Part shown: positions 6,651 to 64,000 of the stretch, piece after piece | Position numbering within the stretch: the first letter of the stretch is position 1 | How the letters are laid out: each line of letters starts with the position of its first letter | Origin: Tubulanus polymorphus | Lineage: Eukaryota; Nemertea; Palaeonemertea; Tubulaniformes; Tubulanidae | NCBI RefSeq assembly: GCF_964204645.1 | Contig: NC_134030.1 | Coordinates: 9,298,278 to 9,362,277, forward strand | Direction: 5' to 3' | DNA length: 64,000 bases | The notes under the pieces: generated by a model | Told to the model about the DNA's origin: nothing | Database searches by the model: none | The model's input: the letters and a program-made list of their open reading frames with translations, nothing else | Made by a program: the position numbers and the translations under genes

Positions 6651-6663
6651 CTAATCTACTTAA

Positions 6664-11640: not shown

Positions 11641-11679
11641 TCGCCGAGTCTATGGTTTGCAGAAATGAATACGGCGTGG

Positions 11680-11697
11680 CTTCGATTTTCAATATTA
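11680..11697 (+). promoter_or_regulatory. Conserved upstream box of lectin gene 4
   Basis: TTCGATTTTCAATATT about 250 bases before the start codon, embedded in a 160-base block that aligns with the upstream region of lectin gene 2. Confidence 0.4.
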
Positions 11698-11934
11698 ACT
11701 TTCGTAAACATACAATAGGCCTTCGTTGTTTTGTATATATGGCTAATACCTATTGAAGTAAAAAACCGATAGCACGCTCTTCCTGTCATTCTCTTCCGTA
11801 TTTGTTTCCTTGGACGGACTTCACGCGCGCTACCGCTCACGAAAAAAACTTCCTCTGCTTGGTAAACGGTTAGAAAAACCGATATTCACGAATATGATTC
11901 CGTGATTTGTTCAGTAAATTCCCATGGTCACGCT

Positions 11935-12716: not shown

Positions 12717-12747
<31 letters not shown>

Positions 12748-14386: not shown

Positions 14387-14575
14387 ATTCGATTTCGATG
14401 AAGCGATATTTTTGTCTTTGGAGTACATGTACATATACTGGAGTACGCCGATGTAGAAGTTACGTCGATAGCGTCATTGTGATAGTATGTTCTCAACCGT
14501 CACTTAAAAATCTTTCGTCCGACTTATGGCACAATAAACCAATATCACAAGTGATTTCTTGGGTTTTGTTTTACC
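14387..14575 (+). promoter_or_regulatory. Shared upstream module of lectin gene 5
   Basis: Contains the TTCGATTTCGATG box and, from 14486, a segment aligned with 7112-7200 before lectin gene 3 including ACAATAAACCAATAT (14531-14545), about 110 bases upstream of the ATG. The element is seen; its activity is inferred. Confidence 0.4.
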
Positions 14576-14652
14576 TAACTGTATTCATATACATCCGGGA
14601 TCTCTTTAACTTGCTGAAGTTAGTTGGCATTGCCGGTCACGCTGTCATAAGA

Positions 14653-16276
14653 ATGGCACTACTAAAATGTTTACGGTTAACTCTACTGGTATCCTTAGCA
14701 ATGGGCTATGACGCGGGTGACTTCGTTCTAGTAACGAGTTATCCCAAACTCGCATTCCGATGTGCTAATGATGCAAAAACGGAGACTCAGTGCGGTAGCA
14801 TTTGTTTAAGGTTAGGACAAGCCAAATGTTTGGGGTTTGCATTCGATGAACAGCGATGTTTGAGTTTTACAAATGTAGCGTGCACCTCACCCACGCAGCA
14901 GGACGTGGAACTAAACGCCAATAAACGATCAATTTACATTTTCTCTAATATCGGTAAGTTATTCATTATTCGATGTGATTAAATCAGCTTAAAATGAGAT
15001 ATAAATCCATAATATACAATCTATATTTAATGTGGTCATAATATGAGGTTGTTGAAATAGGTTTGTTTCGACGCTTTAAGATACACTCAACTTATTACTG
15101 AAAGAAATGCCAAGTTAATACTGTCAGATCCTGCTATCATGTTTGTTCATAGACTGCTGCAAAGTGTTTTCGTATCTATGTTTTGTATTCTTCTTTTTTA
15201 CACTTAATTCTAGTTTCTTTCCTTTTTATTGTGAAAAACCAATAACGATATCCGTATATTTCGGTGAATATGAAATTGAAATTGAATATGTATTCTTCCT
15301 TTTAAAACCTCCCTCAAAATTCTCAGATTATTGATCCGAGTATTATCAGCTTCCAGGACAACAACAACAACAACAACAACAACCGCATCCGGAAATTTAC
15401 TGACGAATGAAATAACTACCGACGCCAGCTCACCAACTGGCAAGCATACATCCCAGTCGACAACTGCAGGAGACGCTACTTCACCGACAACCACGGGCTC
15501 TAGCTCAACAACCTCAGCCACCACCCCACTTACGATTATTGGTACCAGCCAACCTACAACCACTGTTACAAGCCCACTAACCACAACGATGTCTACGGAC
15601 GCGAGTGCTCCAACTACCAGCGACGCCGGCACTTTTACTGCAGTCAACCATCCATCGGGATCTGAACCAGGCAGTCAACCGCCACTTTCTTCAACCGCTG
15701 AATCAATCACTTCAGTGACAACATACGTTTGTCAACCTGGCTTCAAAATGATTACGGCATCAGGTGGAACTTCGTCGTGTTTCAAATTAGTTGGTTGGTC
15801 AGCGGAAACCATTGGCTTGGTTTGGAAATCGGCACTCGCCGCTTGCAGCGATATTGGAGCCAAACTGGCTGAGCCAAAAACAATTGATATGTACGATAAA
15901 GTGGTCCACGAATTTTTCACAGGGCCATCAGCGGTGCCCATCTATTCAGGTAATCTATACTTACATTTACAATCGTCACTAATCCTCATAATATTTAGCG
16001 ACGCCAAATACACAGTCGATTTTCTTTTCATATCTGAATTAAGGAACACATTTGGGAGTCATCTGGCTGGGTCTAATAGACCGAGATGGAAAAAATCCCG
16101 GTCTACCGGTTTGGCAGAGCCAAAACGAAAGCATCGCTTACACCAACCGCTGGGATACGATCGACCCACAATTCGATAAACAATGCATGGGAATTGGAAA
16201 TACGGGATTTAGATTATCTGGAGGTGGTTGTCGGAAGAAACACCCATACATATGTGAGCAAGTGAAGAAAAACTAG
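14653..16276 (+). CDS. Lectin gene 5: secreted PAN-like / mucin-linker / C-type lectin-like protein
   Basis: Exons 14653-14953, 15350-15949 and 16044-16276; 377 residues. The ATG at 14653 gives a signal peptide (MALLKCLRLTLLVSLAMG). The six-cysteine PAN-like domain, a linker of about 126 residues rich in Thr/Ser/Pro, and a complete six-cysteine CTLD follow. The C-terminus reads PYICEQVKKN rather than CEQL. At the exon 2 start, the acceptor corresponding to the other genes (AG at 15325-15326) would put a TGA in frame two codons later; the frame is rescued by AG at 15348-15349 (chosen here) or at 15339-15340. An upstream open frame from 14323 is not used in this model because the paralogous start is at 14653. 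Ligand unknown. Confidence 0.82.
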
Positions 16277-16466: not shown

Positions 16467-17642
16467 TTATACAAAATTTGCAAAATCTGGATCGGCCCCG
16501 GTCAAATCTGCTACCTCTTCGTTAGCATCGATAAAGTCGTTGTCGCGGACCATTTCTTGGATTCTAACCCTGTGATAATGGTCTGATTTATCGTATAGTA
16601 TATGATGGTGAAAGCTCCTTGCCAGGCAGTTTGTCGGTAATTCGTCACCGTTCTTGAATTTCGCACTAGCCAGCTCGGCGCATTGTTTCGCTTTCGGCGT
16701 ACCTTTCACGCCGGGGTTTTTGCAGAGATGACGTAAAATCTCGGATTTCGAATCGTCGAAAGTCGGCGCGAACATCTCGTGCGATGTGAGGTATATCGCG
16801 TCGCAGACGGAGCCGAAATGTTGCTTTTGATTTGCGTCGTTGACTACGGTATAATCACGAATTACCTCCTCCAACATGAACGAGCCGGTTTTCCCCAAAA
16901 CGTCGTTATCGTCCGTATTATGCGAATATTTGGGCAGTTTTTCGATGACCTGTTTGAAAAACGTGTGATTAGGACTCGACATCATGACCGCGTTGGTCGG
17001 CGTTTTATCGCGATTCCATAGCACGTACGTGTGCGCCGGGTGATCTTTCGATATAACGGTCGTGTGAGCGCCGAACAGTTTATCCCACGAAACGACCGGC
17101 GCGACGTCCATATCGGCAAAAATACCGCCGAACGCGTATAGAATGAAATATCGTATAACGTTGATTCGGTGACTATCCAACGGGTAGCTGGCGTACAACT
17201 CGTGGTATTTGGGGAACCGTTTCATCATGAATTCTTCAGCGATAGCTTCGGTCCAGAACCAATATTCCCATTCGTCGTTGATCTGCATCCATTTAGTTAT
17301 TTGAGGCTTGAAACCGATCGGCACCATATTATCCTTCCACACTTGATGCATACGCTTCGGAACGGGTTTACATCTTCTAGCTAAGTGCAGGCTTTCGAGT
17401 TCCCGGGCGGATTCTACCCCGTACACGATCGGCACGAAGACGGCTTTTTCTTCGACAGTTTTCGGCTTTAGTCGAGCGGTTTCGATGATATCGTTCGTAG
17501 GCGTCGGTGTATCTTTTTCGGCTAGATTGTCAATGATATACACGGTAGTTAGTATGATGAGAATAGTCGCGATTACTACGTCGGCAAACTTCCATAAACG
17601 ACTGCGCCGTAGTCGGGTATATAGTTGGCGAACGGCGAGCAT
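16467..17642 (-). CDS. GT32-type glycosyltransferase, type II membrane protein
   Basis: Single open frame of 391 residues. An N-terminal basic stretch is followed by one hydrophobic segment (about residues 20-37, VVIATILIILTTVYII), the layout of a Golgi type II membrane enzyme. The catalytic domain shows KRMHQVWKD (97-104) and VIRYFILYAFGGIFADMDV (162-180), the GT32/OCH1-A4GALT-like signature; the DMD at 177-179 is the DxD metal and nucleotide-sugar site. NHT is a potential N-glycosylation site. Donor and acceptor sugars cannot be told from sequence; OCH1-like mannosyltransferase and A4GALT-like galactosyl/GlcNAc-transferase are the nearest families. The gene is intronless within the coding region and convergent with lectin gene 5. 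The start is the first ATG, just ahead of the membrane anchor. Confidence 0.85.
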   Translation of the reverse strand: MLAVRQLYTRLRRSRLWKFADVVIATILIILTTVYIIDNLAEKDTPTPTNDIIETARLKPKTVEEKAVFVPIVYGVESARELESLHLARRCKPVPKRMHQVWKDNMVPIGFKPQITKWMQINDEWEYWFWTEAIAEEFMMKRFPKYHELYASYPLDSHRINVIRYFILYAFGGIFADMDVAPVVSWDKLFGAHTTVISKDHPAHTYVLWNRDKTPTNAVMMSSPNHTFFKQVIEKLPKYSHNTDDNDVLGKTGSFMLEEVIRDYTVVNDANQKQHFGSVCDAIYLTSHEMFAPTFDDSKSEILRHLCKNPGVKGTPKAKQCAELASAKFKNGDELPTNCLARSFHHHILYDKSDHYHRVRIQEMVRDNDFIDANEEVADLTGADPDFANFV

Positions 17643-18657
17643 GGTCGGCGTTATGACGAATTATCCTGAATTTAGAAAAGAAAAATCACTAGTGACGTGT
17701 CATTCAGCAATGCAAATATAGGTTATTATTATTTTCATTAGGTTATATTCCATTTCAAAATGCCCAAGATTTCACGATTTACGACGTAAATTTATGAAAC
17801 TTGATTATCGTAGATATCCATCTGTACATATTCAGTTATTGAGTACACAGAATGAGAACGGATTGCTAAATTTAGGAAGCTATTGTTTCATAGGCATGAA
17901 AAGGATGCAAACATGTGTATCATTTAGTTTAACCTTAGAGCAGTTATTGCGCTAAGGTTAAACGTATACACACATGAACCTGTGACATCAATAAGCCTTT
18001 TAGTAGTAGGCCTAAAACGTATTCTTATCATATCCTCATCTTCAACGTCAAATTGACGAGTGCCGTTACATATACGGGGTTCTAATATTCACATTTTTCA
18101 AATTCATTGCACCGATATTGAAATTTATCGAATGAAATTAAGGACCATGGTGGTCTATTTCAATAAACTCAAAACTTTAGTCTAAAATAAACTTTACATT
18201 ACTGTATAGAGCAAATGTATATTATTAAGTAATGAACAATCATGGAAATGGTAATTCGAAAAAGAAAACTATTTTGATCAATGACACTGAACATTTTTCT
18301 TGACATGCGTTTATTTTACAGATATTCCATACGTTACTTACTTGTCTATGTATTTCGCTTAAATAACAATTGTATCGCCTGCGTATAATGCCCCCCAAAT
18401 AACTCGCTTAGACGTGTCTCTAGCGTCTACTATACTGTAAGTTTGACCACCGCGAGTCCTGAACAGTCGAGCGAGCACAATGACCAAACGAGTAATTTTT
18501 AATTCTATTGATAACCGTTGTTACTTTGTATTCGTCGCATGGTAATAAAAACAAACAACTGACACTTACGATTTGTTTCTCGTTTTGGATACCGATGAAG
18601 TTTAAAACCGTCTAGAGACAGTTCGTAGAGGAGCCGTGTCAATCGGGTTTAGAATAA

Positions 18658-24900: not shown

Positions 24901-25343
24901 TATAAGTGTGAAATTTTCGAGGTCGATTGAAATTAATGCGAACTGGAACTATTTGATTCTATGAGAAGAATTATTTTTTTCACTACAGATATAGAGTGAA
25001 CGAACAAGTTTCTTTTTTTTTCTGATACAAAATATGCACGAACATAGTACATTTTAAAATATGGCCGAATAAACCTCTGATTTGGGGATGTTCAAATAAT
25101 CAATTCAGAAACAGAAATTGAAAAAAAAAATCTAGGTAAAACCTTCAAAACCTTCATCGGGGCTCATATTATTGTTTCAGAAATGTTCGTACTGTTGTAA
25201 GTTTGGTGCGACGATTAAGTGTCGTACGAGCAAATGTAACCGGATCTACCATTACCCGTGTGCGTCGGCTAGCGGCTGCTTCCAGGACATCAAAACGCTG
25301 TGGTTACTGTGTCCTGATCATTCCGATCAGGCAGAGTCTTTAT
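21921..25343 (+). CDS. KMT2C/D: KMT2 exons 1-5: N-terminus and extended PHD (ePHD1)
   Basis: Exons 21921-22108, 22772-23011, 23407-23586, 24115-24355 and 25181-25343. Residues about 42-49 (RRNPGRPK) resemble an AT hook, a feature I associate with KMT2C more than KMT2D. A Lys/His-rich run (KKKKHKKHKKHKKEKR) spans the exon 1/2 junction and an acidic stretch follows. ePHD1 starts in exon 3 (ICAFCNCGDRSLLGQGDM..YEPSPGF), continues through HAWAHHCCAAWS in exon 4 and ends with KCSYCCKFGATIKC and HYPCASASGCF in exon 5. The initiator ATG is the first in the frame, but non-coding upstream exons are possible. Confidence 0.9.
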
Positions 25344-28300
25344 GTAAGTATTTTTGTATTTCAATGAATAGATTTTAGAACGTTTCGAATTTTCGATTGA
25401 TTGTAGTTCATTTGCTAAAAACGAAAGAATAGTAATTACATCTGCAATAGTTAGTTATCTGTTACTTTTAACAGATCAGGGTCCAGTTTCATGCATAAGT
25501 ATAACCTTAAAACAGTATATTTGCAATAGTTAGTAATCTGTTACTTTTAACAGATCAGGGTCCAGCTTCATGCAGAAGTTGAAGCTTACAATGGTCGAAT
25601 TGATGGCCTCTCTGAAAAACCAAACGCAGCTGAACCCAAAATTTTAGAAACTTGTATAATCCAGATTTGGACTTAAATGCACTTATTAGCTAAACTGGGT
25701 GAACTAGTTTATTAGCTTTGCCTTATTGAAGTATTTAGGTGGTAAGAAAAAAAGCGAGGCAATTGTCCTGAAACTGTTAGCGCACAAAGACATTCAGTGC
25801 ATATATACCGCACAGCTATATATTGATAATGAGCTTTGCTAGTACACTGTACCGTAGTGTATTGATATAATTAGTAGATAGAGAATATCTGTTAAATGAT
25901 AATAATCCACGTCAAATAGGCCTTCAGTGAAATATAAGTAACTTACAACATATCGCAGTATGCCCCTTTATACAACAAGAGCAATGGGGTGAACTTTTTC
26001 GAAATCTTCAAATTATCTTCATCACTTTAACGTTACAATTAGTCAGTATTGAAAGGGTTTTAAATGATTTATTCATACTCTGCAGGTAAAATGGAAGCGT
26101 TGTGCGTTGTATGCGATACCGCCGGCAACATCTCCGAACAACTGTTCTGTACGAGCTGCGGCCAGCACTACCACGGCAACTGCCTCGACCCGCCCGTCGA
26201 GGTGAACCCGGTCGTGCGCGCCGGCTGGCAGTGTCCCGAATGTAAAATCTGTCAGACTTGCCGACAGCCCGGCGACGACAATAAGATGCTCGTCTGCGAC
26301 ACGTGCGACAAAGGTTACCACACGTACTGCCTACGCCCGCCGATGACAACGATCCCGAAGAATGGCTGGAAATGCAAGGTGCAGTTGTTTATTTCAATAA
26401 TTCGTAGTTAAACAGGGTCCTTGCGAATTCCTTAAAGACTCCTTCTAAACTGAAAATGCTTTTAAAGGTGCTTGAAACTCATTTGATTTGAGCAAAATGC
26501 ACAAAACTCCTTCAAAATCTCCTTCAATTCTTTGAGTAATAGGCAATTAGAAATGTTTGTAGTTGCACAGTAGACTACCCCTTAATTGGATCGGTACAGT
26601 TGGGACCAGGATTTTTTTCTTTACCCAATTAAGCAGTCATCTAATCAGAAACGGAGGTTAGTAGTGTAACGGATACACTTGCTTACAAAAACCACCAAAT
26701 TAACAGTTTACCAAGATAAACAGTAAGGATTTTAGAGGAGTCTATAGTAATTGGGATATGGAAGTAATGCACAGACTTCCTCGAAATTTTAAATTTCCTC
26801 CTTCGGATAAAACTCCTAGAAGTCTCCTTATAACCAGGAATGACTAATCTGTGGAGACCCTGTTGAGACTAAATTAACCCAGCGAGCTGTTTATGATAGA
26901 TAGATAGATAGATTTATTGCTCACAAAATTTACAAATTTGCGAAGAGCAAAAGCCAGTTACAAGATACATTATTATACAAATAACATACAATGAAAATTG
27001 ACAGTACATACAATTGATGGACATATATATGCAACAAGTGCATTATCTGGCATTTATGCACTTAGGTATTAAAGTATCTTAAACATTTCTGTATATATGA
27101 AATGAGGTTTTTTAATTTCACGCCAGTTGTACAAAATAACTCTTTAGATTTATGCGATGTAGGATTGTTTATATAATATTGCTTGACATATTGATACCGA
27201 TTGTGCAACATATTTTATCTGTAGAGTTGTCGATATTGCGGCGACTGCGGCACGAAAGTACCGGGCACGAGTAACAGCGCGCGATGGCATCTCAACTATT
27301 CCGTCTGCGATGTCTGCTACCAACAACGTAACAAAGGCGCCACCTGTCCGCTGTGCGGGAAGGCATATCGTCATCTGCTCCAGTCGAAATCGATGCTGCA
27401 CTGTCATCGGTGTCGCAAGTAAGTCTTGTTAAGATTGGTCCACTAGGTAACCGTCGTGCAAATTGTTAGTTATTTTCGAATTGTCATTTTTCAAACTTTT
27501 GTCGTAGGTACGTTCATCCGACCTGCGATCCAGGAGGGGCATACGAACAACAAGCTAGTTATATTTGTCCCATCTGTATAGCCCACTGCCCGGTAAGTTA
27601 CTTAATTTCCCTATTTCCGTCCTGTATTTCTAGTTTGCGGGCCTGCATTTGTACTGATCAGTGTGAAACTGCCACCAAATTGTTCGATATTTTCCATTTC
27701 CAAGTTCCGTTGCTTTATGATATTTATTAGTATAGCTCAACCAAAATTTTGTGAATTTTCCGGTAACTCGATAAATGATTTCATCCAAACTAAAACGTGT
27801 TCCAAAATTAACATGAGTCTGGGAATCGTTATCTTTATCGTGCACAGGCCATAGCCCGGTCTTGAAATTGAAAATGTCAAATTTGAGATCGAGAAATTAT
27901 GTAGACCAAGGAGGTGAAGGAGTTGAATTTTTGGCATGCATTCACATTGTTCTGTATTGTCTGATTGTAAAATTTTCCACGAATTCTATCTTTTCTGAAT
28001 TTGTCTGAATATCTTAAAAATTCAGGAGGACGCCACCGAGAGTCCGCGAACGATCGAGGAAACGGAAGGCGAGGGTTCGAACTTGTTTCCGGCTATTATG
28101 CCCGGCGGTCAGGCGGCCGTTCAAGATCCAGCATCGTCTGCGTTCTACGGCGACGCTGTCGCGGCGATGATGGACGTCGATAATCCCAATCAACAATCGG
28201 CCAGTCAAATCGCGCCTCGCTTGACGGCGTTGTTGTCAGGCGCGGACGTCAGATGCGGCCCGGGTAAAGGCAAACCGCCAATGATAGCCGCGAAGAAACG

Positions 28301-56000: not shown

Positions 56001-59000
56001 GAATGGTTAATGTTAGCAACAAGAGCTAGCGTATTCATGATCGTGATCTGAAGATACTGATGTTTTCTTACATGTATATGTTTGTTTCGTATGATACGCA
56101 CATGTGTGTGTTGTTATTGTATGTATGTAGGTCCGCGATACATGATCCGTCCGCATTTAGACGGGATGGCGGCGCCTAACGCCCCGCGGTTACTCGGTCC
56201 GTTCCATCCACCAGGTAGGATGCCAGTATACAATGCATATGCAAAACCACCACCTTTTATGTGTTTATATATTATGTATCTATGTTTTCGGTACACTGTT
56301 TCGTTATGTACTTCACATTCTTTCGATAATTTCATCGTGCAAGGTTGTACTTCCTAATTATTTTAAAATCTCTTATGCTCTTTGTTGCGTAATTTATGAT
56401 TTTTCCCATCTACGCCAGCCCCGCTGCATTGGCAATACGGTTTATCCCTGAAAAAAACTCGCATTGGGTTTGTTATATAGCTGTTTATGCCTTGCACACA
56501 TCAAGTTCTTGTATTGATTAAAGGTTTGCCCGCAATCGAGGGTTTCGTTAGCCACGACGCAGCAGGCTTTACGGTTCCCGAGAAAAAACCTAAGAAAAAA
56601 CGTAAACGCAAAAAGAAAGAACTGATAGGTTCGTCGCCGTGATTGCCCTCTAGTGCTAGATTTTAGAACTAACGAACAGTCCTGTACGCGTATAGAGCAC
56701 GTGTGCTACTTGTGACTTATGAATTTCGGTAGATGTACGTTTTTACTAACGGATAGATTTTGATTTAATACGGCTGTTGCTGCTGCTACTGCTGCTGTGA
56801 TAACTAACCTGGATGATTGTCATTAAATTCATAAACATGCTAGTTGAATACATCGAAAATCTTCTTTTCATCGGATAAACAATCCTTCGTGTGTATTTCT
56901 AATCTTCGTTTGTAGTTCTTCTATTTGCTTGCTCTCCGATCTTTATCATAAGAAATCTTTTTCTTCGGATCCCCTGTATTACGTATTACATTTTTATCAT
57001 GTCGGCATGACGCATGTTTTGTTTGAAAGCTGACCTGTTTTACATCGTTTAACTCACATTATCAAACTAATGCATGCGTCCAGGGTGGCCACTTACCTGG
57101 AAAACCTGGAAAGCTCAGGGAATCATGAAAAATGTAGAAAAAATTCAGGGAAAACTCAGGAAATATGACAAATTTTTCCAAAGACATGGGGAATTTGGAT
57201 ATGTTGTTGACCAGTCATTTCTTCACCAATACGTGATTCATAAAAAAAATGAATAAATTGTAACATTTCAAATTGAGAAATTCCTGGCAAAGAATTTCAT
57301 CAAAGAATTCTGAGTTACAACCAGGAAAAAATCGGTTGGATTAAAAATTGGCTGAACGTGGCGACCCTGGCATTGCTAATAAATAACACATGCCACTTAC
57401 CTTAATCTGTCAATTGATTTTCGTAAATTATGTACACTGATATTAGTTTGGTTGAATGATATGCTGTTTCTGCCATGAAGATGTCGTAAAATGTAATTCA
57501 TAACGTTGTTTGCCCGTTTCAGGATTGTCACCGAGTTCCCAACCACCATCGACGCCATCACCGCACAGTTCTGACGGCCAGCGCTCGCAACATAACCAAC
57601 CGATGATGTCTCCCTTACCATCTCCGACCAGTTTGGCTGCGAAAGGCCATCAGCTCGGTTCGCATATGGTCGACGTTCCATCCACTGGACAATCCGTTCC
57701 TTTGCAAATGATACCTCGTCCGCCGTTGGAAGGATCCGAAAGTGTCGAGTCGGTAATGGTGCGACCGATGTCGGTTCACACGTCGACTTCGAGTCCGGCG
57801 TCAGTACACGGCGGAAAGTCGATCGAGGATAGTCACTCGCAAGGTTCTGGAAGTGAAACCTCGTCGACGCACGGTTCGCCTCGTATACATCATAGCGGAA
57901 AGACAGGGCCGCCATTCCCGCTCGAGGAAGACACTACCTCAGTGAAATCCAGTTCAGATGACACGCAGATTAACGATCCGGAACCGGATCAGATGGGTGA
58001 TATTACTGATGGTAGCGGTGAAAGAAAGGTTGAAACTGTCGAAAAATCGGATACTGTAGGTGATTCCGGGAACTTGCCAGCACTTGCTGCTCAAGATCCT
58101 GCCGTGACGCATCCAGATAACAGTAGAGTAGCTGCAGCCTGTGATTCCAAAGAAGATTCTGATACTCCCCTTGGCAGTAAGACACAAACACAAGGTGACT
58201 GTGGAACTCCACATGGTTGTGGTGAAACAACTGGCCAGCCAACCCAAGGGGATTGTGGAACTCCACATGGTTGTAGTGAAACAACTGGACAACCTTCACA
58301 AGGTGATTGTGGAACTCCACATGGCTGTGGTGAACCAACTGGTCAGCCAGCCCAAGGGGATTGTGGAACTCCACATGGATGTGGAGAGCCTACTGGACAA
58401 ACTTCACAAGGTGACTGTGGAACTCCACATGGTTGTGGTGAACCAACTGGACAAACTTCACAAGGTGACTGTGGAACTCCACATGGTTGTGGTGAACCAA
58501 CTGGCCAGCCGACACAAGGTGACTGTGGAACTCCACATGGTTGTGGTGAACCAACTGGTCAGCCAACTCAAGGTGACTGTGGAACTCCACATGGACGTGG
58601 TGAACCAACTGGTCAGCCGACACAAGGTGACTGTGGAACTCCACATGGATGTGGTGAACCAACTGGACAAATTTCACAAGGTGACTGTGGAACTCCACAT
58701 GGTTGTGGTGAACCAACTGGACAAACTTCACAAGGTGACTGTGGAACTCCACATGGATGTGGTGAACCAACTGGACAAACTTCACAAGGTGACTGTGGAA
58801 CTCCACATGGTTGTGGTGAACCAACTGGCCAGCCAACACAAGGTGACTGTGGAACTCCACATGGTTGTGGTGAACCAACTGGTCAGCCAACTCAAGGTGA
58901 CTGTGGAACTCCACATGGCTGTGGTGAACCAACTGGTCAGCAAACTCAAGGAGACTGTGGAACTCCACATGGATGTGGTGAACCAACTGGTCAGCCGACA

Positions 59001-62000
59001 CAAGGTGACTGTGGAACTCCACATGGATGTGGTGAACCAACTGGACAAACTTCACAAGGTGATTGTGGAACTCCACATGGTTGTGGTGAACCAACTGGTC
59101 AGCCAACTCAAGGTGACTGTGGAACTCCACATGGCTGTGGTGAACCAACTGGTCAGCCAACTCAAGGAGACTGTGGAACTCCACATGGATGTGGTGAACC
59201 AACTGGTCAGCCGACACAAGGTGACTGTGGAACTCCACATGGATGTGGTGAACCAACTGGTCAGCCAACTCAAGGTGACTGTGGAACTCCACATGGCTGC
59301 GGAGAGCCTACTGGACAACCTTCACAAGGTGATTGTGGAACTCCACATGGCTGCGGAGAGCCTACTGGTCAGTCATCTCAAAGTGACTGTGGAACTCCAC
59401 ATGGATGTGGTGAACCCACTGGTCAGCAAACTCAAGGGGACTGTGGAACTCCGCATGGATGTGGAGAGCCTACTGGCCAAGAATCACATGAAAATGTTCC
59501 CTCAAGTAGTTGTGAACCGAATCCCATACAATCCCAAGACTTAGGTGAGTCAAGTGAAAAAAAGGGAGCTTCAGAAAGAACACCTTCAGCTAACCCCTCT
59601 ACATCCAAGGCTTCTATGAGGCAGGATAAACTAATGGAAACAGACGAGCCACATAAAACTGAAGGGATTTCCTCTATTTTAGATGTCGCTAGCAATGCAA
59701 GCCAACTACCCAGTAAGCAAGTTACGGAGGAAAGTCCTAACAGCGATAGTTCTCAGGCTACGCTTGTTGATCAGCCTATCAGCTCTGATGCGAATGATGT
59801 CCCATTGCCAACCGTGAAGACGGAGAAAGATGATTCGTTACTAGAAACTGGTGCTTGTAATATTAAACTTGAACCTGTTTCTACCACAGTCGCTGCGAGT
59901 TGTGGCCATTCGGTGCCAGTCATGCCAACTGGGAAAGTGATGTCTAACATCAAAGCAGAACCAGGGGAAGGTGGTAAGTATATTTTTACCCTATATCTTA
60001 TTGTTTTCTGGTTATTTCAAACATCGGTTGTGATAGGCGTGCATTGTATTTCAGGACAAACAACGCATGGACCATGTAGTGAAGAAGAAATGGAAGCTAT
60101 TCGAAGTCAGAATGTCTTATTGAAACAATTATTAGCTATGCCTAATCAAGAGATACCCGCAGGAATGCAATTACCACCAGGAGCTCTCCCGATGTCAACT
60201 ACGACACCGCCACCACGCCCAAGTGGCACGCCGCCAGTTGCTATGTCAATGGGTAATCTTGAAGGGCAGAATCTCCAACATTCGGTGCATATGCATCAAC
60301 AAGTCCCGATATCTATGCCAGCTGGTATGCCGCCTGGAGGACCAGGAATGATGCCGCAGCATATGGGAATGCCACATCATCCCTCGAATATGCCTTTGCG
60401 ACATCCGCAGATGCAGCCTATGCCACCGCCGTATCACGCGCACATGGGTGGACAACCGCCGCAATCAATGGGCATGCCGCCAAGATCTCAGATGCAAATG
60501 AGCATGGGTCCGATGGGCCAGCACCCGGGTAATATGCCCCACCGTATGATGTACATGCATCAGTTACCTCCGCACATGCGTCATCCAAACCAAATGGAAT
60601 TACGGCATCACATGGCGCAAATGGCGGCCCGACAGCCGATGCACCATCCGGGGATGGGGCCTCCGCGTATGCACATGGGCATGCAAGGGCCGCCTCAGCA
60701 AATGATGCGCGGAATTCCGAGTCGGCCGAATCAACCGATGCCTCACATGGGTCAAGTTCGAGCACCGACGAGTATTCCGCCGGTCGTATCGTCGAGCTCG
60801 CCGCAGCCTCAAGGGGCGATTAACTCGAACATGCCGCGTCGATCAACGCCTTCGCCGCACGCGATGGGTATGCAACACGGCTCGATGGGCCACATGATGA
60901 TGTCTCCGACCGGACAGCCACCACGCGGAATGCCGCCCGGTTACATGCAAGGGCCGCCGACTAGTATGGCTCAACGACATTCACCGGTGAGCAGCGGTCA
61001 GAACCTTCCGCCGTCGACGTCTCACCCTCAGGCGGGGCCGCGAGGAATGCCTCGACCCATGAGGTACCCGCCGTCGAGTACACCGCCGGGAAACTCGCCG
61101 CCGGGGTTCCCGTTCATACGCGGGCAACCGCCAATCGCCCATGCGCACGCTCCTCGTCAGTCGTTGCCGCCGGGCCATCCGGGACATGGGCCTCCGTCGC
61201 GGCTACCGCCGTCTAGTCAATTCCAAACTCACATGGGCGACATGATTCGTCTACCGCCTACAGGTCATCAGCCGATAAACCAAGGACATCCGCCGTCCAG
61301 TTCGCCTCAAATCGGAATCCCGCCGATCCGGATGCCCGAATCGACATCACCTCAGAATCGAATGGGAATGATGCCCGCGGGCCTTACGTCGCCAATGGAC
61401 CCGACCAAATCTCCGAGCGAACTGCATCCGGGGAAGATGTCGCCCATGCAGCAACAACAGCAGCAGCAACAACAACAACAACAACAGCAACAACAATCAC
61501 CTCAAGGACTTCCTCGCGTGTCGATACCGATGGGTTTACCCGGGCAGACGACGCTGATGATGGTTCCGCGTCAGCCTAACCCGCAGCAACAAATCGGGCA
61601 ACCGCAAACCGGTATGGGTATACCGAAAACGCCGCCGAACATGGGCGGTCTCAGTCCCGTGATATCGCCGCACGGAATGACGGCGATGATGCCACCCAGT
61701 CTACCGACACCGCCTAGTGGCGGACGCGTCGGTTTATCGCCTCAACAGAGATTATCACGCCCGCCGTCACGAGTGGTATGTGTAAAAAACATTTCGGCAA
61801 TTTTTTCTGGTTATAACTTGAAAATTAATAATGTAACGTTCACATTTTTTTTTTACAGGAGGGAGAAGACGATCTGACGCCGGTTTCGTTGACGCCGGAA
61901 CAACAGCGACAACTAGCGCTAATCGACAGCATGCCGCTGACGATGGAGTTGGACATGTCGCCCGACGAATGGGCCGCGAAATCATCCGAGGAAAAGGAAC

Positions 62001-64000
62001 GAATAATCGGTATGTGGAGACAGGGTAATGTTTAACTTTATCATTCTCTGCATGTGCTGGTTAAGTATTATACACGAGCATATTCTACTATTCAACAGAC
62101 ACGCGCAAAGATTCGTGTCAAAGATACGTTGAACTGAAACGCAAATCCATGTTTTTATTTGGAAATACTTAACAAAACAAAAACAAAATACTGAATACTT
62201 TAAGTTGAATACTTGACTGAATATATGTCAATCACGAATTACTTTGAATGTTTTTATTTTTATGAAAGATTAATTGAAAACTGCTCCTGCTCATTCTGAT
62301 AGCGGTATTCATTGAAATTAGAAATAGTATCGTGCCAAATCTAGTTTTATTCTCAAATTCATGTTTTTATTCGGAAATACCTTTGAAATATTTAACGGAA
62401 AAAAAGAAAACAGTGGTTGAATACTCGACTGAATATGTGTACGTAATCATGCATTCCTTCGAATGTATTTTATGAAAGATGAAAACAGCTCCGGCTCATT
62501 CTGAAACCAGTATTGATTGAATTTAGAAAAGGTTTTATGCAAGTGTCAATATACAGCTTGATACTACGTATTTCTTCACTTTATTTGGTCAAATCTTGGC
62601 AATGTGATCTTACTAGTGTCATATTGTGAAATGTCTAATGTAAATTGGGGGCGGCATCGTTTTATCAAGCTGACCGCAAATGTGTTAACTGAGTTACTGA
62701 TCCCTGAGAGGTTTATGGAAGGTTGAGGAATGGGATTCCTGAGCGAATAAGTGCATACATTTTCAGAAATGAAGCGCCAAGAATTCGAACGTCGACGCAA
62801 AGAAGTCGAAGATGCCGCGCGCAAGGACAAAAAACCGAAGCAGACTCGACGCAAGAAGAAGGACGCTGGCGGCGACAAGGACGGGCCGCCGAAAAAACGT
62901 TCGCGCAAGAAAAACGCGACGGAAGATTTTGACATGTACGTCGACAACATGCTACAGCAGTTGCGACGCATGCCGATGGTTCCATTACAAGAGCCGATTA
63001 TACAGATTAATTGGTCGTTGTGTCCGATTACTGGATCTGGTGATTTTCACGGTGAGCGACTTCTTCTCATTGTCCGTGATGTGTTTTCTTATGCATTCCG
63101 CGAACATTGTCTGTTCAAGTAAATACTACAATTGAGTACAGACCTATTCACTTACCTGGAAAACCTGGAAAACTCAGGGAATCAAAAAATCTAGAAGAAA
63201 ATCTGGGACAACTAAGGGGATTTTAATGAATAATACCGAAAACCTTAAAAAAAATTTAAAAATCTAATTTTACCAAAAAACTGGAAAACTCGGATAATGC
63301 TATTGATTACCTGCTTCCCAATCAATATGTGAGTCAATGGAAAATGAATGATATGTAACATTTTAAACCTAGAAATTTCTCTGATTCACTCATGGAAAAA
63401 TCAGGGAAAACTAAAGGGCTTTTCTAATAGGGTAGAAAGTAGCCGCAGGATTCTTATGGTTCGTTTGAAATAAATACACCTGGTGTGAAAGTTAAGAAAA
63501 GAATTTTTAAGATCTGCTCATTCAAAGGAAAAATCTGTTAATGTTACGAACTAAAATGTTGATTCATCGAAGATGAAGTTGGGATCGCATAGCGTGTAGA
63601 CCATCGTACTCATTGAACATGAACGTATTTGCTTATCTATGCAGAGGCGAGCCCGCTACGAGGACAGTTTGGTGTAGCTGAGGCAGAAACGCATGCACCG
63701 ATCTACAACGTACCGCCATTCGGACCGAAACCAGCGACACCAATACCTCCTCCACCACCTCCTCCTCCACCTCCACCTCCGATGATGAGAGCGACGCCGC
63801 CTCCACCGTACCCTGGACTCACTGCAACAGGTATATTTCATTGCTTCTAATGTTTTCGTTGAAAAGTCTATTGGCTGAATTAGTCGTTTGAAATCGGGCT
63901 GCGGTCTCGATTTCAGTAAAAAATTGGTGTTACGATTAGTTATGGAATTATAAGACTTGTCTAAGCCTTGATTGCACGACTGGCCTCTGGGCTCATGTAC
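21921..64000 (+). CDS. KMT2C/D: KMT2C/KMT2D (MLL3/MLL4) histone H3K4 methyltransferase orthologue, 3' end outside window
   Basis: 44 exons were chained by eye with consistent phase, from ATG 21921 to the donor after 63830, giving about 4,685 residues before the window ends. The domain order is that of vertebrate KMT2C/D: N-terminal AT-hook-like and Lys-rich segment, extended PHD, two PHD clusters, HMG box, DPYxxPxTPRP repeats, Gln-rich coiled coils, an IELRH motif, LxxLL boxes and a QLRRMPMVPLQEP block. FYRN, FYRC and the catalytic SET domain should follow beyond the window. In the family the enzyme works in a COMPASS-like complex with WDR5, RBBP5, ASH2L, UTX, PTIP and NCOA6 and deposits H3K4me1 at enhancers. 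Unlike Drosophila, where LPT and Trr are separate genes, the PHD and scaffold parts here are continuous. An unusual 54-bp repeat array lies in exon 40. Confidence 0.95.
23745..24050. repeat. Foldback repeat in KMT2 intron 3
   Basis: CTCGGCGGGGATTCAAACC at about 23757 is mirrored by GGTTTGAATCCCTGCCGAG at about 24020. The intervening sequence has no open frame. B-box-like sequence is present but no tRNA fold was found. Confidence 0.5.
24432..24885 (-). mobile_element. LINE C-terminal fragment in KMT2 intron 4
   Basis: The minus-strand frame reads FKILILTYKSLNGQAPQYL, then LLAIPRVNL, GHRAFSYSALLLWNSLPDAI and FKSQLKTHLF. This is the C-terminal region typical of CR1/L2-like non-LTR retrotransposons. 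It is truncated upstream of DHKYFGYWIRIQ (5' truncation, about 24885). The AT-rich end near 24432-24460 carries AATAATAAT, the mirrored simple-repeat tail. Confidence 0.8.
25442..25600 (+). repeat. 80-bp tandem duplication in KMT2 intron 5
   Basis: TGCAATAGTTAG..TCAGGGTCCAG begins at 25442 and again at 25522, a period of 80 bases. Each copy contains the palindrome ATCTGTTA/TAACAGAT. Confidence 0.75.
25793..26057. mobile_element. TTAA-type MITE (CCCTTTCAGTG family) before KMT2 exon 6
   Basis: Related to the element at 52754-53034: shared parts include ATCGCAGTATGCCC-like sequence and a right end TTGAAAGGG followed by TTTTAA. The right end lies only 28 bases before exon 6. The left end is diverged. 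Confidence 0.5.
26086..27592 (+). CDS. KMT2C/D: KMT2 exons 6-8: PHD fingers 1-3
   Basis: Exons 26086-26378, 27225-27418 and 27508-27592, about residues 338-528. PHD1: ALCVVCDTAGN, LFCTSCGQHYHGNCL, WQCPECKIC. PHD2: CRQPGDDNKMLVCDTCDKGY, HTYCLRPPM, GWKCKSC. PHD3: CGDCGTKVPGT, YSVCDVCYQQR, CPLCGKAY, CHRCRKYVHPTC, YICPIC. In the KMT2C/D family this triple cluster contributes to chromatin and substrate binding. All zinc-ligand positions that can be judged are present. Confidence 0.92.
26880..27130 (-). mobile_element. Retroelement 3' end with GATA tail in KMT2 intron 6
   Basis: GATAGATAGATAGATTTATT (about 26897-26916) read on the minus strand is AATAAATC followed by (TATC)n, a common LINE/SINE 3' end. 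The body up to 27130 is AT-rich without an open frame. Confidence 0.4.
28026..29493 (+). CDS. KMT2C/D: KMT2 exons 9-11: basic linker between PHD clusters
   Basis: Exons 28026-28322, 29004-29090 and 29407-29493, all phase 0. An acidic start (EDATESPRTIEETEGEG) leads to a Gly/Ala-rich stretch and then basic segments (AAKKRLAAGRPK and SIPKRRGPKLKK, possible nuclear localisation or AT-hook-like sequences), ending DDDDDHHSTVVLCKTTDQF before PHD4. No catalytic domain. Exon 11 follows a long GT microsatellite. Confidence 0.85.
28362..28620. mobile_element. CAGGGTGGCC-family MITE, copy 1
   Basis: Starts CAGGGTGGCCGCTTACCT and ends AAGTGGGCGCCCTG; interior TCAGGGAAA motifs and GACTGTGTTAATTGATT are shared with other copies in KMT2 introns. 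Confidence 0.65.
29376..29401 (+). repeat. (GT)n microsatellite at an acceptor site
   Basis: About 12 GT units end only a few bases before the TTATAG acceptor of KMT2 exon 11, occupying the place of the usual polypyrimidine tract. Confidence 0.9.
30016..31569 (+). CDS. KMT2C/D: KMT2 exons 12-15: PHD fingers 4-6
   Basis: Exons 30016-30120, 30391-30572, 30966-31130 and 31457-31569, about residues 686-873. PHD4: DMCMACGAYGRD, LIVCVQCGQCYHPYC, GWRCLDC. PHD5: CEGCGKPHDESRLLLCDECD, SYHIYCLDPPL, GTWKCKWC. PHD6: CARCASYYSC-like segment with CPACYRQYRDEELIIQC, RWLHAICDG, YQCLFCRP. In mammals the PHD4-6 cluster binds histone H4 tails. Strong family match; intron phases are consistent. Confidence 0.92.
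30640..30917. mobile_element. CAGGGTGGCC-family MITE, copy 2 (diverged)
   Basis: Contains AACTTACCTGGAAATCAGGG near the left end and ends TAGGCCACCCTG. The interior repeats CAGGGAA motifs. Confidence 0.5.
31727..32292. mobile_element. CAGGGTGGCC-family MITE, copy 3, split by a SINE
   Basis: The left end ATGGTGGCCATTTACC and the right end AAGTGGCCACCCTG enclose the SINE at 31931-32252. Comparison with the copy at 34998-35234 shows that the MITE is continuous without the SINE. Confidence 0.65.
31931..32252 (+). mobile_element. tRNA-Ser/Leu-derived SINE, copy 1
   Basis: The 5' head has a tRNA-like A box (TTTGGCCGAGTGGTTAGAGC) and B box (GGTTCGAACCC). A conserved body follows (TCCTCGGGCAAGACACTTAT, CCACCCAGGATTAAATGGGT) and the 3' end reads CATATTATTATTG. 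Short ACAT-like sequence on both sides may be the target-site duplication. The body resembles the conserved core domain shared by several metazoan SINE families; the exact family is not certain. Confidence 0.85.
32380..36361 (+). CDS. KMT2C/D: KMT2 exons 16-21: acidic and basic linker
   Basis: Exons 32380-32679, 33083-33441, 34101-34302, 34854-34967, 35378-35509 and 36031-36361, about residues 874-1352. Includes the family motif PPRPHFMIDGVLLSEDGLGM followed by PKKRRKQRRT, basic KKRQKRRPIKPG and EKKRKGRRPVKKKEKK, then EDNYPVYLTEAFFGNDLMDE, matching a conserved KMT2C/D block. Acidic helices rich in Asp/Leu follow (DLKDLLPSDLLMPSDL; DVDKNLDVDKMLTE). Exon 21 ends in a Pro-rich segment. The exon 19 donor (GTAGTG) is weak but phase-consistent. 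Confidence 0.85.
33555..33830. mobile_element. CAGGGTGGCC-family MITE, copy 4
   Basis: Starts CAGGGTGGTCACTGACCTGG and contains ACTCAGGGAATCAGG and TCAATGGAAAATGAATGAAT, shared with copies at 43727, 57081 and 63139. The right end is eroded. Confidence 0.6.
34354..34670 (+). mobile_element. tRNA-Ser/Leu-derived SINE, copy 2
   Basis: Closely matches the copy at 31931-32252: A box GTGTGGCCGAGCGGTTAGAG, B box GGTTCGAACCC, the same conserved body and the same 3' end (AAGACACATATTATTAT). Lies in KMT2 intron 18 in the sense orientation. Confidence 0.85.
34998..35234. mobile_element. CAGGGTGGCC-family MITE, copy 5 (diverged)
   Basis: Contains GACTGTGTTAATTGATTAAG and TGTCAGGGAATAGTCAGGG, as in copies 1 and 3, and ends AAAGCCACTCTG. 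Confidence 0.5.
36833..37899 (+). CDS. KMT2C/D: KMT2 exons 22-23: HMG box
   Basis: Exons 36833-37109 and 37656-37899, about residues 1353-1526. The HMG-box core is readable across the junction: KWEKDEPFGDQ, then VLYANINHPELKIEYPEWSE, RAKQIAKIWRRVPTEQRAPY, LAKARENRASNRMQKSQ. This matches the KMT2C/D HMG box in order and spacing. A poly-Pro segment and a charged Gln-rich helix (EQKMLREQEQERQWKHFQAL) follow, probably a coiled coil. Confidence 0.9.
37966..38086. mobile_element. Short MITE with TTGCTCAAAA ends
   Basis: CAGTTGCTCAAAAGC at the left and CTTTTGAGCAACCTG at the right are inverted copies; about 121 bases, in KMT2 intron 23. Confidence 0.6.
38742..40003 (+). CDS. KMT2C/D: KMT2 exon 24: DPYxxPxTPRP repeat region
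   Basis: 1,262-base exon, about residues 1527-1947. Contains about eight imperfect copies of DPYAxxPxTPRP (DPYAQAPSTPRP, DPYARPPGTPRP, DPYGQQVRTPRP, DPYAQQPMTPRP, DPYAKQPQTPRP, DPYAQPPQTPRS, DSYSQPATPRP, DPYAQAPPTPHS). The same type of repeat occurs in vertebrate KMT2C/D. The TP sites are candidates for proline-directed phosphorylation. The exon ends with a charged helix, TTEKQRFMEEETPQ. Shadow frames on both strands reflect its GC-rich triplet structure. Confidence 0.9.
41010..41085. repeat. (TA)n microsatellite
   Basis: About 37 uninterrupted TA units in intron 24; likely polymorphic and prone to collapse in assembly. Confidence 0.95.
42713..43280. mobile_element. TTAA-type repeat (CCCATTAG family), diverged copy
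   Basis: The left end, CCCATTAGAGCTCAGGAAAT then CGCTATGTAGTGTC, matches the cleaner copy at 51314-51652. The right end, GAGGGCTAATAATAGG, is eroded. Confidence 0.5.
43510..43623 (+). CDS. KMT2C/D: Possible extra KMT2 exon (24b)
   Basis: 38 codons, phase 0 to 0, between a TACGTAG acceptor (AG at 43508-43509) and a strong GTAAGT donor. The predicted peptide ends in TQTPTPPPTTPAASTTTADL followed by AR, like the Thr/Pro-rich stretch that precedes the QRQxLRE block in the family. The GC content is exon-like in an AT-rich intron. A stronger-looking acceptor at 43526 would shift the frame. Including or skipping it preserves the reading frame. Confidence 0.4.
43727..44016. mobile_element. CAGGGTGGCC-family MITE, copy 6
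   Basis: The left end GGGGTGGCCAATGACCTGGG and the right end AAGTGGCCACCCTG enclose CAGGGAA motifs and a segment shared with copies 4, 8 and 9. Confidence 0.65.
45386..45757 (+). CDS. Unrecognised open frame of 123 codons in KMT2 intron 24
   Basis: ATG to TAA, starting MRPEKQLRKIIVSQ and ending YFNYSEITNN, with several cysteines in the middle (HSCLFC, FCTT). No family was recognised, no splice signals were needed, and its length is above what the AT-rich surroundings normally give. It could be a chance frame, a transposon remnant or a small nested gene. Confidence 0.2.
   Translation: MRPEKQLRKIIVSQVKTPDDTKCMLEKLPARIDSFTSDATHLTIKKVKLLEGPSSIRRNHSCLFCMVNSENSFCTTNPSFDYLFIQDMALTGYLSDRVRMQMEFHCFLRKIAEYFNYSEITNN
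45873..47226 (+). CDS. KMT2C/D: KMT2 exons 25-28: Gln/Lys coiled coil and IELRH motif
   Basis: Exons 45873-46062, 46393-46551, 46736-46878 and 46970-47226, about residues 1948-2196. Starts with a charged helix, QEIQRQQLRELLAKQTKQRQ, equivalent to the QRxxLRExxxKQQ block of KMT2C/D, then Pro/Gly/Met-rich segments, and PGQYIELRHQQ matching the family YIELRH motif. It ends Thr/Pro/Ser-rich with a short Gln run. Scaffold region; no enzyme domain. Confidence 0.87.
47257..47622. mobile_element. TTAA-type MITE (CCCTTTCAGTG family), KMT2 intron 28
   Basis: The left end CACTTTCAGCGCTTCTACAC and the right end TTACTGAAAGGG followed by TTAA. The interior CCGTGGTGCGGTGTAC matches other copies. Confidence 0.55.
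47754..48997 (+). CDS. KMT2C/D: KMT2 exon 29: acidic then Ser/Pro/Met-rich scaffold
   Basis: 1,244 bases, about residues 2197-2611. Opens with an acidic stretch containing DDLLGADGSFNLLEYADPDL, the family's conserved acidic block, then a Lys/Glu-rich segment (charged, disordered), then many S-P and M-S-P sites (MKSPLTVRSPL, LMQMSPRPG, QQMSPRVV) and a His/Gln/Met/Pro-rich tail. The donor chosen (G at 48997, then GTAAGC) joins in phase to 49583. If it is not used the frame stops at 49014 after KLKK. Confidence 0.85.
49071..49518. mobile_element. Composite foldback element with tRNA-like sequence in KMT2 intron 29
   Basis: Terminal inverted repeats of about 55 bases: ACAAGCTGTA..GTGGACTAGT at the left, ACTAGTCCAT..TACAGCTTGT at the right. 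Inside, a second hairpin (TTCACTGTCACTTC at about 49351, GAAGTGACAGTGAA at about 49399) and, on the minus strand, a B-box-like GGTTCGATCCC. A segment (49150-49325) recurs at 50370-50530. Confidence 0.6.
49583..52252 (+). CDS. KMT2C/D: KMT2 exons 30-33: LLLEDL motif and Pro/Met-rich region
   Basis: Exons 49583-49734, 50889-50991, 51867-51942 and 52059-52252. Contains LLLQEQPLLLEDLVAQ, followed across the junction by EKMEQQRQAEQQAMMQRQ, matching the PLLLEDLxxQEKxEQ block of KMT2C/D (a helical segment, probably a coiled coil). The rest is Pro/Gly/Met-rich with S-P sites (PYSPGPYPPSQSPG). Confidence 0.87.
50279..50643. mobile_element. CAGGGTGGCC-family MITE, copy 7, carrying an insertion
   Basis: The left end CGGGTGACCACAATTCAGG and the right end TTGTGGTCACCCTG. 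The interior 50370-50530 duplicates 49150-49325, suggesting a nested insertion. Confidence 0.55.
51314..51652. mobile_element. TTAA-type MITE (CCCATTAG family), intact copy
   Basis: The ends CCCATTAGCACTCAGG and CTTTAGTGCTAATGGG are inverted; the element is flanked on both sides by TTAA (51310-51313 and 51653-51656), the target preference of piggyBac-like transposons. 339 bases, no coding capacity. Confidence 0.75.
52561..54669 (+). CDS. KMT2C/D: KMT2 exons 34-36: coiled-coil region
   Basis: Exons 52561-52727, 53226-53570 and 54591-54669. Reads QWRQYEEWLMHQMQLLTLQV and KFLEQQVAKQRKAKKTL, then LNELDLAELERITHDQQGLQ, KQLDQVRKQQRQHQLLIQEF, RSKQQERFG. These match the QYEEWL..QL and QKQLDQVRKQQ coiled coil of KMT2C/D. 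Exon 36 contains DNNPFSESYIDQEKLQQRVP, the family NPFS motif. Confidence 0.9.
52754..53034. mobile_element. TTAA-type MITE (CCCTTTCAGTG family), intact copy
   Basis: The ends CCCTTTCAGTGCG and CCACTGAAAGGG are inverted, with TTAA on both sides (52750-52753 and 53035-53038). 281 bases, in KMT2 intron 34. This pattern is typical of non-autonomous piggyBac-like elements. Confidence 0.75.
54717..54830. mobile_element. TTAA-type MITE (CCCTTTCAGTG family), deleted copy
   Basis: TTAA then CCCTTCCAGTGCGATG at the left, and GGCACTGAAAGAGGG with TTTTAA at the right. About 114 bases, so most of the interior is missing. Confidence 0.6.
55030..56642 (+). CDS. KMT2C/D: KMT2 exons 37-39: Pro/Met-rich, with a basic exon that can end the protein
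   Basis: Exons 55030-55152, 56131-56214 and 56524-56628, all phase 1 to 1. Exon 39 codes PEKKPKKKRKRKKKELI, a strong nuclear-localisation-like run. Its only in-phase donor is GTTCGT (56629), not a consensus site. If it is not used, translation continues GSSP and stops at TGA 56640-56642. Exon 39 is 105 bases and can be skipped without shifting the frame, so it may be a cassette or an alternative last exon. Confidence 0.75.
57081..57369. mobile_element. CAGGGTGGCC-family MITE, copy 8
   Basis: Starts CAGGGTGGCCACTTACCTGG and ends CGTGGCGACCCTG; 289 bases, the best-preserved copy, immediately upstream of KMT2 exon 40. Confidence 0.7.
57523..59973 (+). CDS. KMT2C/D: KMT2 exon 40: Ser/Pro-rich, 24-copy Cys-rich repeat, SUMO-type motifs
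   Basis: 2,451-base exon, about residues 3088-3904. It opens Ser/Pro-rich (SGLSPSSQPPSTPSPHSSDG), then an acidic segment. Residues about 3311-3742 are 24 tandem units of QGDCGTPHGCGEPTGQPT. After this come Ser/Glu-rich sequence and three psi-K-x-E motifs (VKTE, IKLEP, IKAEP; Lys at about residues 3853, 3869, 3898). The donor GGTAAGTA follows GEGG. The repeat is not something I know from KMT2C/D of other animals; the flanks on both sides are in frame with recognised KMT2 sequence. Confidence 0.88.
58191..59486 (+). repeat. Coding minisatellite, 24 x 54 bp
   Basis: Exact 54-base period over 1,296 bases, in frame throughout. The consensus unit is QGDCGTPHGCGEPTGQPT, with variation mainly at the last two residues (PT, TS, PS, QT, SS, IS) and one Cys-to-Arg change in unit 8. 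47 cysteines in total, each unit having C-x3-H-x-C. Variant order suggests a partial higher-order register (TS, PT, PT, PT recurring in units 5-8 and 16-19). Confidence 0.97.
59814..59960 (+). other. Cluster of three SUMO-consensus motifs in KMT2
   Basis: VKTE (59814-59825), IKLE followed by Pro (59862-59873) and IKAE followed by Pro (59949-59960), within 49 residues. The psi-K-x-E-P form resembles synergy-control motifs of transcription factors. Modification is inferred, not shown. Confidence 0.55.
60055..61775 (+). CDS. KMT2C/D: KMT2 exon 41: LxxLL box, Met/Pro-rich region and polyQ
   Basis: 1,721 bases, about residues 3905-4478, phase 1 to 0. Starts GQTTHGPCSEEEMEAIRSQN and VLLKQLLAMP; LKQLL (60120-60134) is a nuclear-receptor-box type LxxLL in the same context as in KMT2C/D. 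Then a long Met/Pro/His/Gln-rich low-complexity region, a run of 16 Gln (61449-61496), and S-P-rich sequence. The intron before it is only 81 bases and is itself open in frame. Confidence 0.9.
61449..61496 (+). repeat. Coding CAG/CAA run (Q16)
   Basis: Sixteen in-frame glutamine codons, mixed CAG and CAA, in KMT2 exon 41. Confidence 0.95.
61859..63830 (+). CDS. KMT2C/D: KMT2 exons 42-44: approach to the C-terminal FYR/SET part
   Basis: Exons 61859-62009, 62767-63051 and 63645-63830. Exon 42 (EGEDDLTPVSLTPEQQRQLA) is acidic and helical, ending SPDEWAAKSSEEKERII. Exon 43 is Lys-rich (PKQTRRKKKDAGG, PPKKRSRKKN) followed by FDMYVDNMLQQLRRMPMVPL and QEPIIQINWSLCPITGSGDF, a conserved KMT2C/D block. 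Exon 44 has a poly-Pro run (13 residues) and PPPPYPG, possible WW/SH3 ligands. Phase 1 at the last donor; the next exon is outside the window. Confidence 0.88.
62147..62570 (+). repeat. 212-bp diverged tandem duplication in KMT2 intron 42
   Basis: ATGTTTTTATTTGGAAATAC at 62149 recurs as ATGTTTTTATTCGGAAATAC at 62361. Both are followed by GACTGAATATRTGT and TTATGAAAGAT, with a period of about 212 bases and some indels. Confidence 0.65.
63139..63450. mobile_element. CAGGGTGGCC-family MITE, copy 9 (diverged)
   Basis: Contains CACTTACCTGGAAAACCTGG, AACTCAGGGAATCA and TCAATGGAAAATGAATGA, shared with copies 4 and 8; both terminal repeats are eroded. Confidence 0.55.

Follow-up and report, generated by a model that had tools for sequence, protein, structure and literature searches.

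An apparently constrained, cysteine-rich coding minisatellite in a KMT2C/D-type gene of the nemertean Tubulanus polymorphus

When a long tandem repeat lies in frame inside the gene of a chromatin-modifying enzyme, is it the encoded peptide that is maintained, or is the array merely repetitive DNA that happens to be open? The question is raised by a window of 64,000 nucleotides from the nemertean Tubulanus polymorphus (assembly GCF_964204645.1, contig NC_134030.1, positions 9,298,278 to 9,362,277, forward strand), in which a gene resembling those of the KMT2C/KMT2D (MLL3/MLL4) H3K4 methyltransferases carries, on the + strand, an array of 24 units of 54 bp at 58194-59489 (positions refer to the window, except where a contig handle such as C6 precedes them). 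As delimited by Tandem Repeats Finder and by reading in the coding frame, each unit encodes the 18 residues GDCGTPHGCGEPTGQ-x-x-Q, P or T predominating at the first x and T or S at the second. The corresponding Tandem Repeats Finder row (58187-59476, period 54, 23.9 copies, 89% matches, 0% indels) has the top score, 1838, among the 14 rows within the window. We regard the array as a coding minisatellite, unusual for its cysteine content and its apparent constraint, that is situated where a known enzyme is probably disordered.

The array comprises 1,296 bp; of its 432 residues, 47 are Cys and 25 are His, and none is Lys, Phe, Trp or Tyr. A C-x3-H-x-C motif holds 24 of the histidines, and the 25th is the last codon of unit 24; Cys3 and His7 are retained in 24/24 units and Cys9 in 23/24, being replaced by Arg in unit 8 (C9R). 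The frame containing the array is stop-free from 57504 to 61877 and its tandem units lie in frame within one exon, delineated from the sequence, which is what characterizes a coding minisatellite. A sequence-only reading of this DNA had already proposed a 24-copy coding array lacking stops and made of Cys/His-rich units, all of which is borne out. The length then given also stands, but its register (58191-59486) has to be moved one codon to the right to match the coding frame; likewise its count of 47 Cys is right, and its 24 His correspond only to those within the motif. Calling the repeat exact was too strong, as 20 distinct versions at the DNA level and 12 at the peptide level are found among the 24 units.

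We have analyzed the constraint on the unit peptide using pairwise counts and simulation rather than tree-based tests, since the units exchange sequence and are thus not independent. Over the 276 unit pairs, no unit being dropped, the mean synonymous difference (pS) amounts to 0.365 and the mean nonsynonymous difference (pN) to 0.047, corresponding to a ratio of 0.129. It falls to 0.043 when codons 16-17 are left out and rises to 0.57 for these two alone; residues 16-17 are an internal control which shares the array and its exchange and is far freer to change. The same is evidenced by the distinct codon variants, which are 14 synonymous and 5 nonsynonymous outside codons 16-17 (P from 6e-6 to 6e-5 versus random change) and 3 synonymous and 9 nonsynonymous within (Fisher P 0.012 between the two classes). 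The +1 frame is also open and yields a pN/pS of 2.64, stops occur in some units in the +2 frame and in all three minus frames, and the substitution pattern suits the coding frame alone. We have also carried out neutral simulations with block duplication, deletion and mutation, in 600 runs for each transition bias (kappa 2 and kappa 4), accepting those which reached 24 units (larger arrays being cut to 24) and a mean identity of 0.84-0.92. None of the accepted simulations was at or below the observed pN/pS (0/136 for kappa 2 and 0/125 for kappa 4, with minima of 0.41 and 0.29). The C-x3-H-x-C unit, two linker residues excepted, thus appears to be held by purifying selection.

The near identity of the units had been taken in the sequence-only reading to imply a recent expansion, which is not borne out: only the peptide is near-identical, as synonymous sites differ by the value given above and, in the eight edge units when codons 16-17 are set aside, by 0.497. 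The alternative offered then, homogenisation, finds support in the distribution of the differences along the array. Indeed, identity is 91.6% within the 16 interior units (5-20) and 81.9% within the eight edge units, and a likeness equal to that of the interior is attained by only 4/20,000 subsets of 16 units drawn at random. Of the five distinct amino-acid variants found outside codons 16-17, four are confined to units 1, 2, 23 and 24, the fifth being C9R in unit 8. Four pairs of units are identical, at spacings of 4, 5, 5 and 6 units, and none of these pairs is adjacent. A uniform interior together with spaced identical pairs fits an exchange of multi-unit blocks that homogenises the interior, and synonymous divergence combined with a conserved peptide points to constraint on the peptide plus this homogenisation rather than to youth. 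The copy number of such an array may well be variable.

The identity of the gene is supported, as the sequence-only reading had it, by the order of its domains and by its SET and FYR matches, which point to a KMT2C/D orthologue. Ten open frames were picked by eye for Pfam searches, with matches at expectation values (E) up to 0.01 in five and none in the other five. Within the window these comprise PHD fingers of the KMT2C/D N-terminal part (26064-26408, + strand, PF00628, 2.2e-23) and an extended PHD-like zinc-binding domain (25136-25375, + strand, PF13771, 3.7e-7). Past the window end and on the same strand there follow an extended PHD and then FYRN and FYRC, upstream of SET; FYRN spans two open frames, one piece being slightly below the curated cut-off and the other above it. 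The arrangement is thus that of KMT2C/D, with PHD and extended PHD N-terminally, an extended PHD ahead of FYRN, and the FYRN-FYRC pair before SET. The FYR segment has human KMT2D as its best match (E 9.3e-27, versus 8.2e-8 for TBRG1), and the SET segment (67 residues, ~21 kb beyond the window) is nearer to KMT2D (5.3e-29) and KMT2C (3.5e-26) than to KMT2B (8.6e-17) and KMT2A (3e-16). Order and strand suggest a single transcript for all these exons. An open frame at 62751-63119 (+ strand) contains a segment weakly similar to residues 229-301 of a human KMT2D construct (best PDB match, E 0.014), and the array is placed by this predicted gene structure upstream of that segment, in a part without recognised domains. 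The claim that recognised KMT2 sequence flanks the array on both sides holds at the level of the gene, but Pfam gave no family with an E of 1 or lower for either the array exon or the one after it; the next exon also lacks a KMT2 chain match in PDB, its best hit (E 0.71) being an unrelated chain. A genome search for FYRC gave four matches: the array gene, two pieces at C6:21.46 Mb and one at C6:8.65 Mb. The C6:21.46 Mb locus has a neighbouring SET match (C6:21456394) and is probably a KMT2A/B gene, and that at C6:8.65 Mb may be a TBRG1 relative, so that the array gene would be the only KMT2C/D gene detected in the genome.

What the array may do is suggested by its physical character. It has a net charge of -48 and a single Ile/Leu/Val/Met residue in 432, and AlphaFold2, run on the single sequence of the first 12 units, returned a mean predicted local distance difference test (pLDDT) score of 39.8, with low confidence throughout; the array most probably forms a long tether, disordered and acidic. 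We propose that tandem duplication of a 54-bp unit gave rise to a coding minisatellite inside the sole detected KMT2C/D gene, whose interior would be kept alike through exchange of blocks of about 4-6 units, purifying selection preserving the unit peptide save for the two linker residues. The product would be a disordered acidic tether joining the PHD-rich N-terminal part to the FYR/SET end and bearing 24 C-x3-H-x-C micro-sites. The most probable ground for the constraint would be that these sites, with two Cys and one His per unit, serve as multivalent ligands: they could bind zinc or another metal, the shell being completed by adjacent units or by a partner, or they could establish reversible thiol contacts. 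Such contacts would compact or cross-link the tether, tuning the density of the enzyme assembly at chromatin. This proposal starts from the open exon, the identity of the gene, the frame-specific conservation and the uniform interior, and from there we infer transcription and translation, disorder, the ligand role and the effect on the enzyme; taken whole, from minisatellite and exchange to purifying selection and a Cys/His ligand tether, we consider it slightly more probable than improbable. Metal binding, thiol chemistry or condensation by the units, all raised in the sequence-only reading, are putative properties. In the excerpts considered here of a study of human KMT2D (PMC8579673), low-complexity domains are reported to drive condensates, which by analogy makes a multivalent role plausible for the array rather than demonstrated. 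A bolder version, in which the 24 selected three-ligand sites form a metal- or redox-responsive polymer, zinc binding or oxidation, cooperative between units, taking the tether from extended to compact and thereby linking metal or redox state to reader-catalytic spacing, with its length set by array mutation and splicing, is in our opinion improbable. KMT2C/D methylate H3K4 at enhancers, and the roles of their long disordered parts are hard to dissect; 24 near-equal units, in which selection shows a clear internal pattern, constitute a natural dose series in which units, Cys and His are individually removable; if metal binding or a redox response were true, those signals would be tied directly to an enhancer-modifying enzyme.

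Several points weigh against this proposal. The evidence comes from the sequence of one genome assembly, with exon boundaries set by splice consensus. Invariance extends beyond Cys and His, and in equal degree, to the Asp, Gly, Thr, Pro, Glu and Gln positions, so that the constraint does not single out the metal ligands. With three Cys/His per 18 residues the unit is short of a full tetrahedral site and has fewer than the four ligands per domain of a classical zinc finger (C2H2, PHD, RING), although sharing between units could still occur, and none of the zinc-binding Pfam families, C2H2, PHD and RING included, matches the array exon at E up to 1. As the structure was computed from a single sequence, the low confidence speaks only weakly for disorder. 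In respect to selection, unit variants are non-independent through sequence exchange and the settings of the neutral simulations were our own choice. In the parts of a Prdm9 study dealing with such arrays (PMC3890296), tree-based tests are ruled out for them, and invariant positions are considered to be possibly homogenised and/or under purifying selection.

Among the alternatives, the array could be a generic disordered spacer, coding and tolerated, selection acting only on bulk properties such as solubility, acidity, flexibility and frame, and the Cys/His pattern being without a role. The strong negative charge, the absence of Phe, Trp and Tyr, the near absence of Ile, Leu, Val and Met and the low AlphaFold2 confidence would all suit a spacer, as would the long low-complexity regions that human KMT2D also has, one of them with 15 short repeats (PMC8579673, in the same excerpts). 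Yet selection on bulk properties should tolerate many changes, such as C to S, H to Q or D to E, and what is observed outside residues 16-17 is 5 amino-acid versus 14 synonymous codon variants, with Cys3 and His7 never altered. Purifying selection on the unit thus argues against a mere spacer, and we regard this explanation as possible but doubtful. A young, selectively neutral minisatellite burst, keeping its frame by chance, would account for the absence of indels, the 89% matches, a unit length that is a multiple of 3 and the four identical pairs; it is hardly compatible with the extent of synonymous difference (0.365) or with the fact that 0/261 accepted neutral simulations are as protein-conservative, and we consider it very unlikely.

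A further possibility is that what is kept is a nucleic-acid element, either the 14-bp inverted repeat TGTGGAACTCCACA, which is unchanged in 23/24 units, or another RNA or DNA feature. Only one synonymous variant is indeed found over codons 3-7 in the 24 units, but this quiet five-codon run does not reach significance (permutation P 0.063), a five-unit RNA folds with a z of 0.52, 141/200 shuffles folding equally well or better, and the genetic code implies that the amino acids alone dictate 4/6 of the arm pairs. We give this explanation the least credence of all. It is also conceivable, given that assemblies are generally error-prone at tandem arrays, that a real array had its copy number collapsed or expanded in assembly; against this artefact, the 20 distinct unit versions provide many anchors and the array sits in a 23 Mb contig, at the only locus listed by the genome DNA search, so that an error in length seems highly improbable.

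The array can be compared with several known systems. The C-terminal domain (CTD) of RNA polymerase II is a long succession of short in-frame units and makes up a disordered, multivalent tail, whose units become degenerate towards one end. The array shares with it the long run of short in-frame units and the degenerate end units, but differs in the unit itself, in having Cys and His in place of Ser, Tyr and Pro, and in being internal rather than terminal. PRDM9 has H3K4 activity, and its fingers are of the C2H2 type, each 28 residues long and built around a hydrophobic core. The array unit differs from these fingers in its length of 18 residues, in matching no zinc-finger family of Pfam and in that its variation falls on two linker positions. 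Common to both is a methyltransferase gene with a Cys/His coding minisatellite on which copy-number change, homogenisation and selection have all left their mark (PMC3890296, parts cited above). There the authors suggest that the middle of the array turns over faster, and in mouse Prdm9 the centre is the most variable between alleles; here, unlike that between-allele variability, the comparison is within one allele and the interior units are the most alike. With human KMT2C/D the likeness resides in PHD, FYRN/FYRC and SET domains of that type. According to the excerpts of PMC8579673, human KMT2D (5537 residues) has disordered low-complexity domains, LCD1 (residues 319-1302) and LCD2 (2078-3408), a 5-residue S/P-P-P-E/P-E/A unit being repeated 15 times in the former; the array unit, with 18 residues, is instead Cys/His-rich, and the array stands towards the C-terminal side, upstream of the weakly KMT2D-like segment. 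The N-terminal motif of rotavirus NSP1, as described in the consulted portion of PMC3185539, includes C-x3-H-x-C within eight Cys/His containing C-x2-C pairs; the sub-spacing is common, but the array unit has three Cys/His and no C-x2-C pair.

Relatives of the unit were sought at several levels. The genome DNA search, which skips simple repeats and very common words, listed only the array locus. The genome protein search, which scores the best candidates only and could therefore miss a relative, listed 26 matches with an E no higher than 10, two of which are the array itself and its reverse strand. All the other 24 (best E 3.5e-15) were inspected and are short-unit tandem repeats of other kinds or low-complexity sequence; CGTPHG is found in 0/24 of them in six frames, and C-x3-H-x-C in some frame in 2/24 (3 and 1 times). 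Several of these tandem arrays are open on both strands or Cys-rich (e.g. units VSTPRE, PTEYCV, GCRSQY and DCGAV), and these long arrays elsewhere in the genome are probably mostly not genes. No convincing match to the array was found in PDB (best E 0.7), and among GTDB species genomes a query of five units (90 residues) gave 28 pattern matches, 0 of which were confirmed by tblastn. Mycobacteriophage records gave 35 matches, the best being to Tweety (42%, E 3e-18); in the one record inspected of the 35, the match lies opposite to the strand of the annotated gene, and it was taken as compositional and discarded as a relative. A literature search for the unit peptide or its spacing retrieved rotavirus work only, and one for KMT2D with repeats or low complexity led to the 5-residue repeat of human LCD1.

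The whole array is held by a single exon, 57523-59973 on the + strand (2,451 bp, stop-free, boundaries deduced from splice consensus), with a TTTCAG acceptor and a GGTAAGT donor cut after its first G, both boundaries being in phase 1. It is followed by an 81-bp phase 1 GT...AG intron (59974-60054, + strand, by splice consensus) and by the next exon (60055-61817, + strand, 3' boundary approximate), which is Pro/Met/Gln-rich with a polyglutamine run and in frame with the array. A left linker (57960-58193, + strand) and a right linker (59490-59972, + strand, net charge -12) flank the units, and the GC content at third codon positions of array and linkers is lower than in the exon start and in the next exon. 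Neither linker contains a significant unit relic: local alignments of unit and linker, compared with shuffles, gave P 0.40 (left) and 0.32 (right) for DNA, and 0.27 and 0.51 for protein. A founder unit in the flanks, suggested by the look-alike SDTPLGS just 5' of the array, was rejected for the same reason. The observed/expected CpG ratio of the array is 0.09, whereas it exceeds 1 in 8/9 other stretches sampled outside the exon (5 coding, 4 noncoding); in ten 150-bp steps over 58125-59624 it ranges from 0 to 0.21, the gene being mostly above 1. The low value of the array results largely from the copying of one unit many times. A donor-like AAGGTGA[C/T]T, with the cut after AAG, recurs at 18/24 unit boundaries in the phase of the true donor, scoring 7.95 or 8.22 versus 9.86 for the latter on a frequency matrix. 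As the exon is symmetric and these internal sites are in phase, skipped or graded isoforms would be expected to keep the frame.

Other features of the locus and genome were noted. Three long overlapping open frames lie in an intron of the KMT2C/D gene, at C6:9366318-9370547; by eye, we take them to resemble a DIRS-type retrotransposon, with reverse transcriptase and tyrosine recombinase. In the SET search, matches at C6:16696538, C1:18281071, C2:9594122, C7:12058135 and C12:9387248 agree in coverage, open length and stop counts, and those at C4:5857087, C8:2874584 and C59:42971 are equal in score and stop-free; near-identical copies of SET domains seem to be scattered over the genome, and a mobile element may be their carrier. 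Elsewhere in the window, inspection by eye suggests that a secreted-looking gene is repeated in tandem at 1391-16273, in about five or six copies which begin with a Cys-rich PAN/apple-like part, continue with a Thr/Ser-rich stalk and finish in a C-type-lectin-like part. It also suggests a sugar-transferase-like open frame of 397 codons at 16470-17660 on the minus strand.

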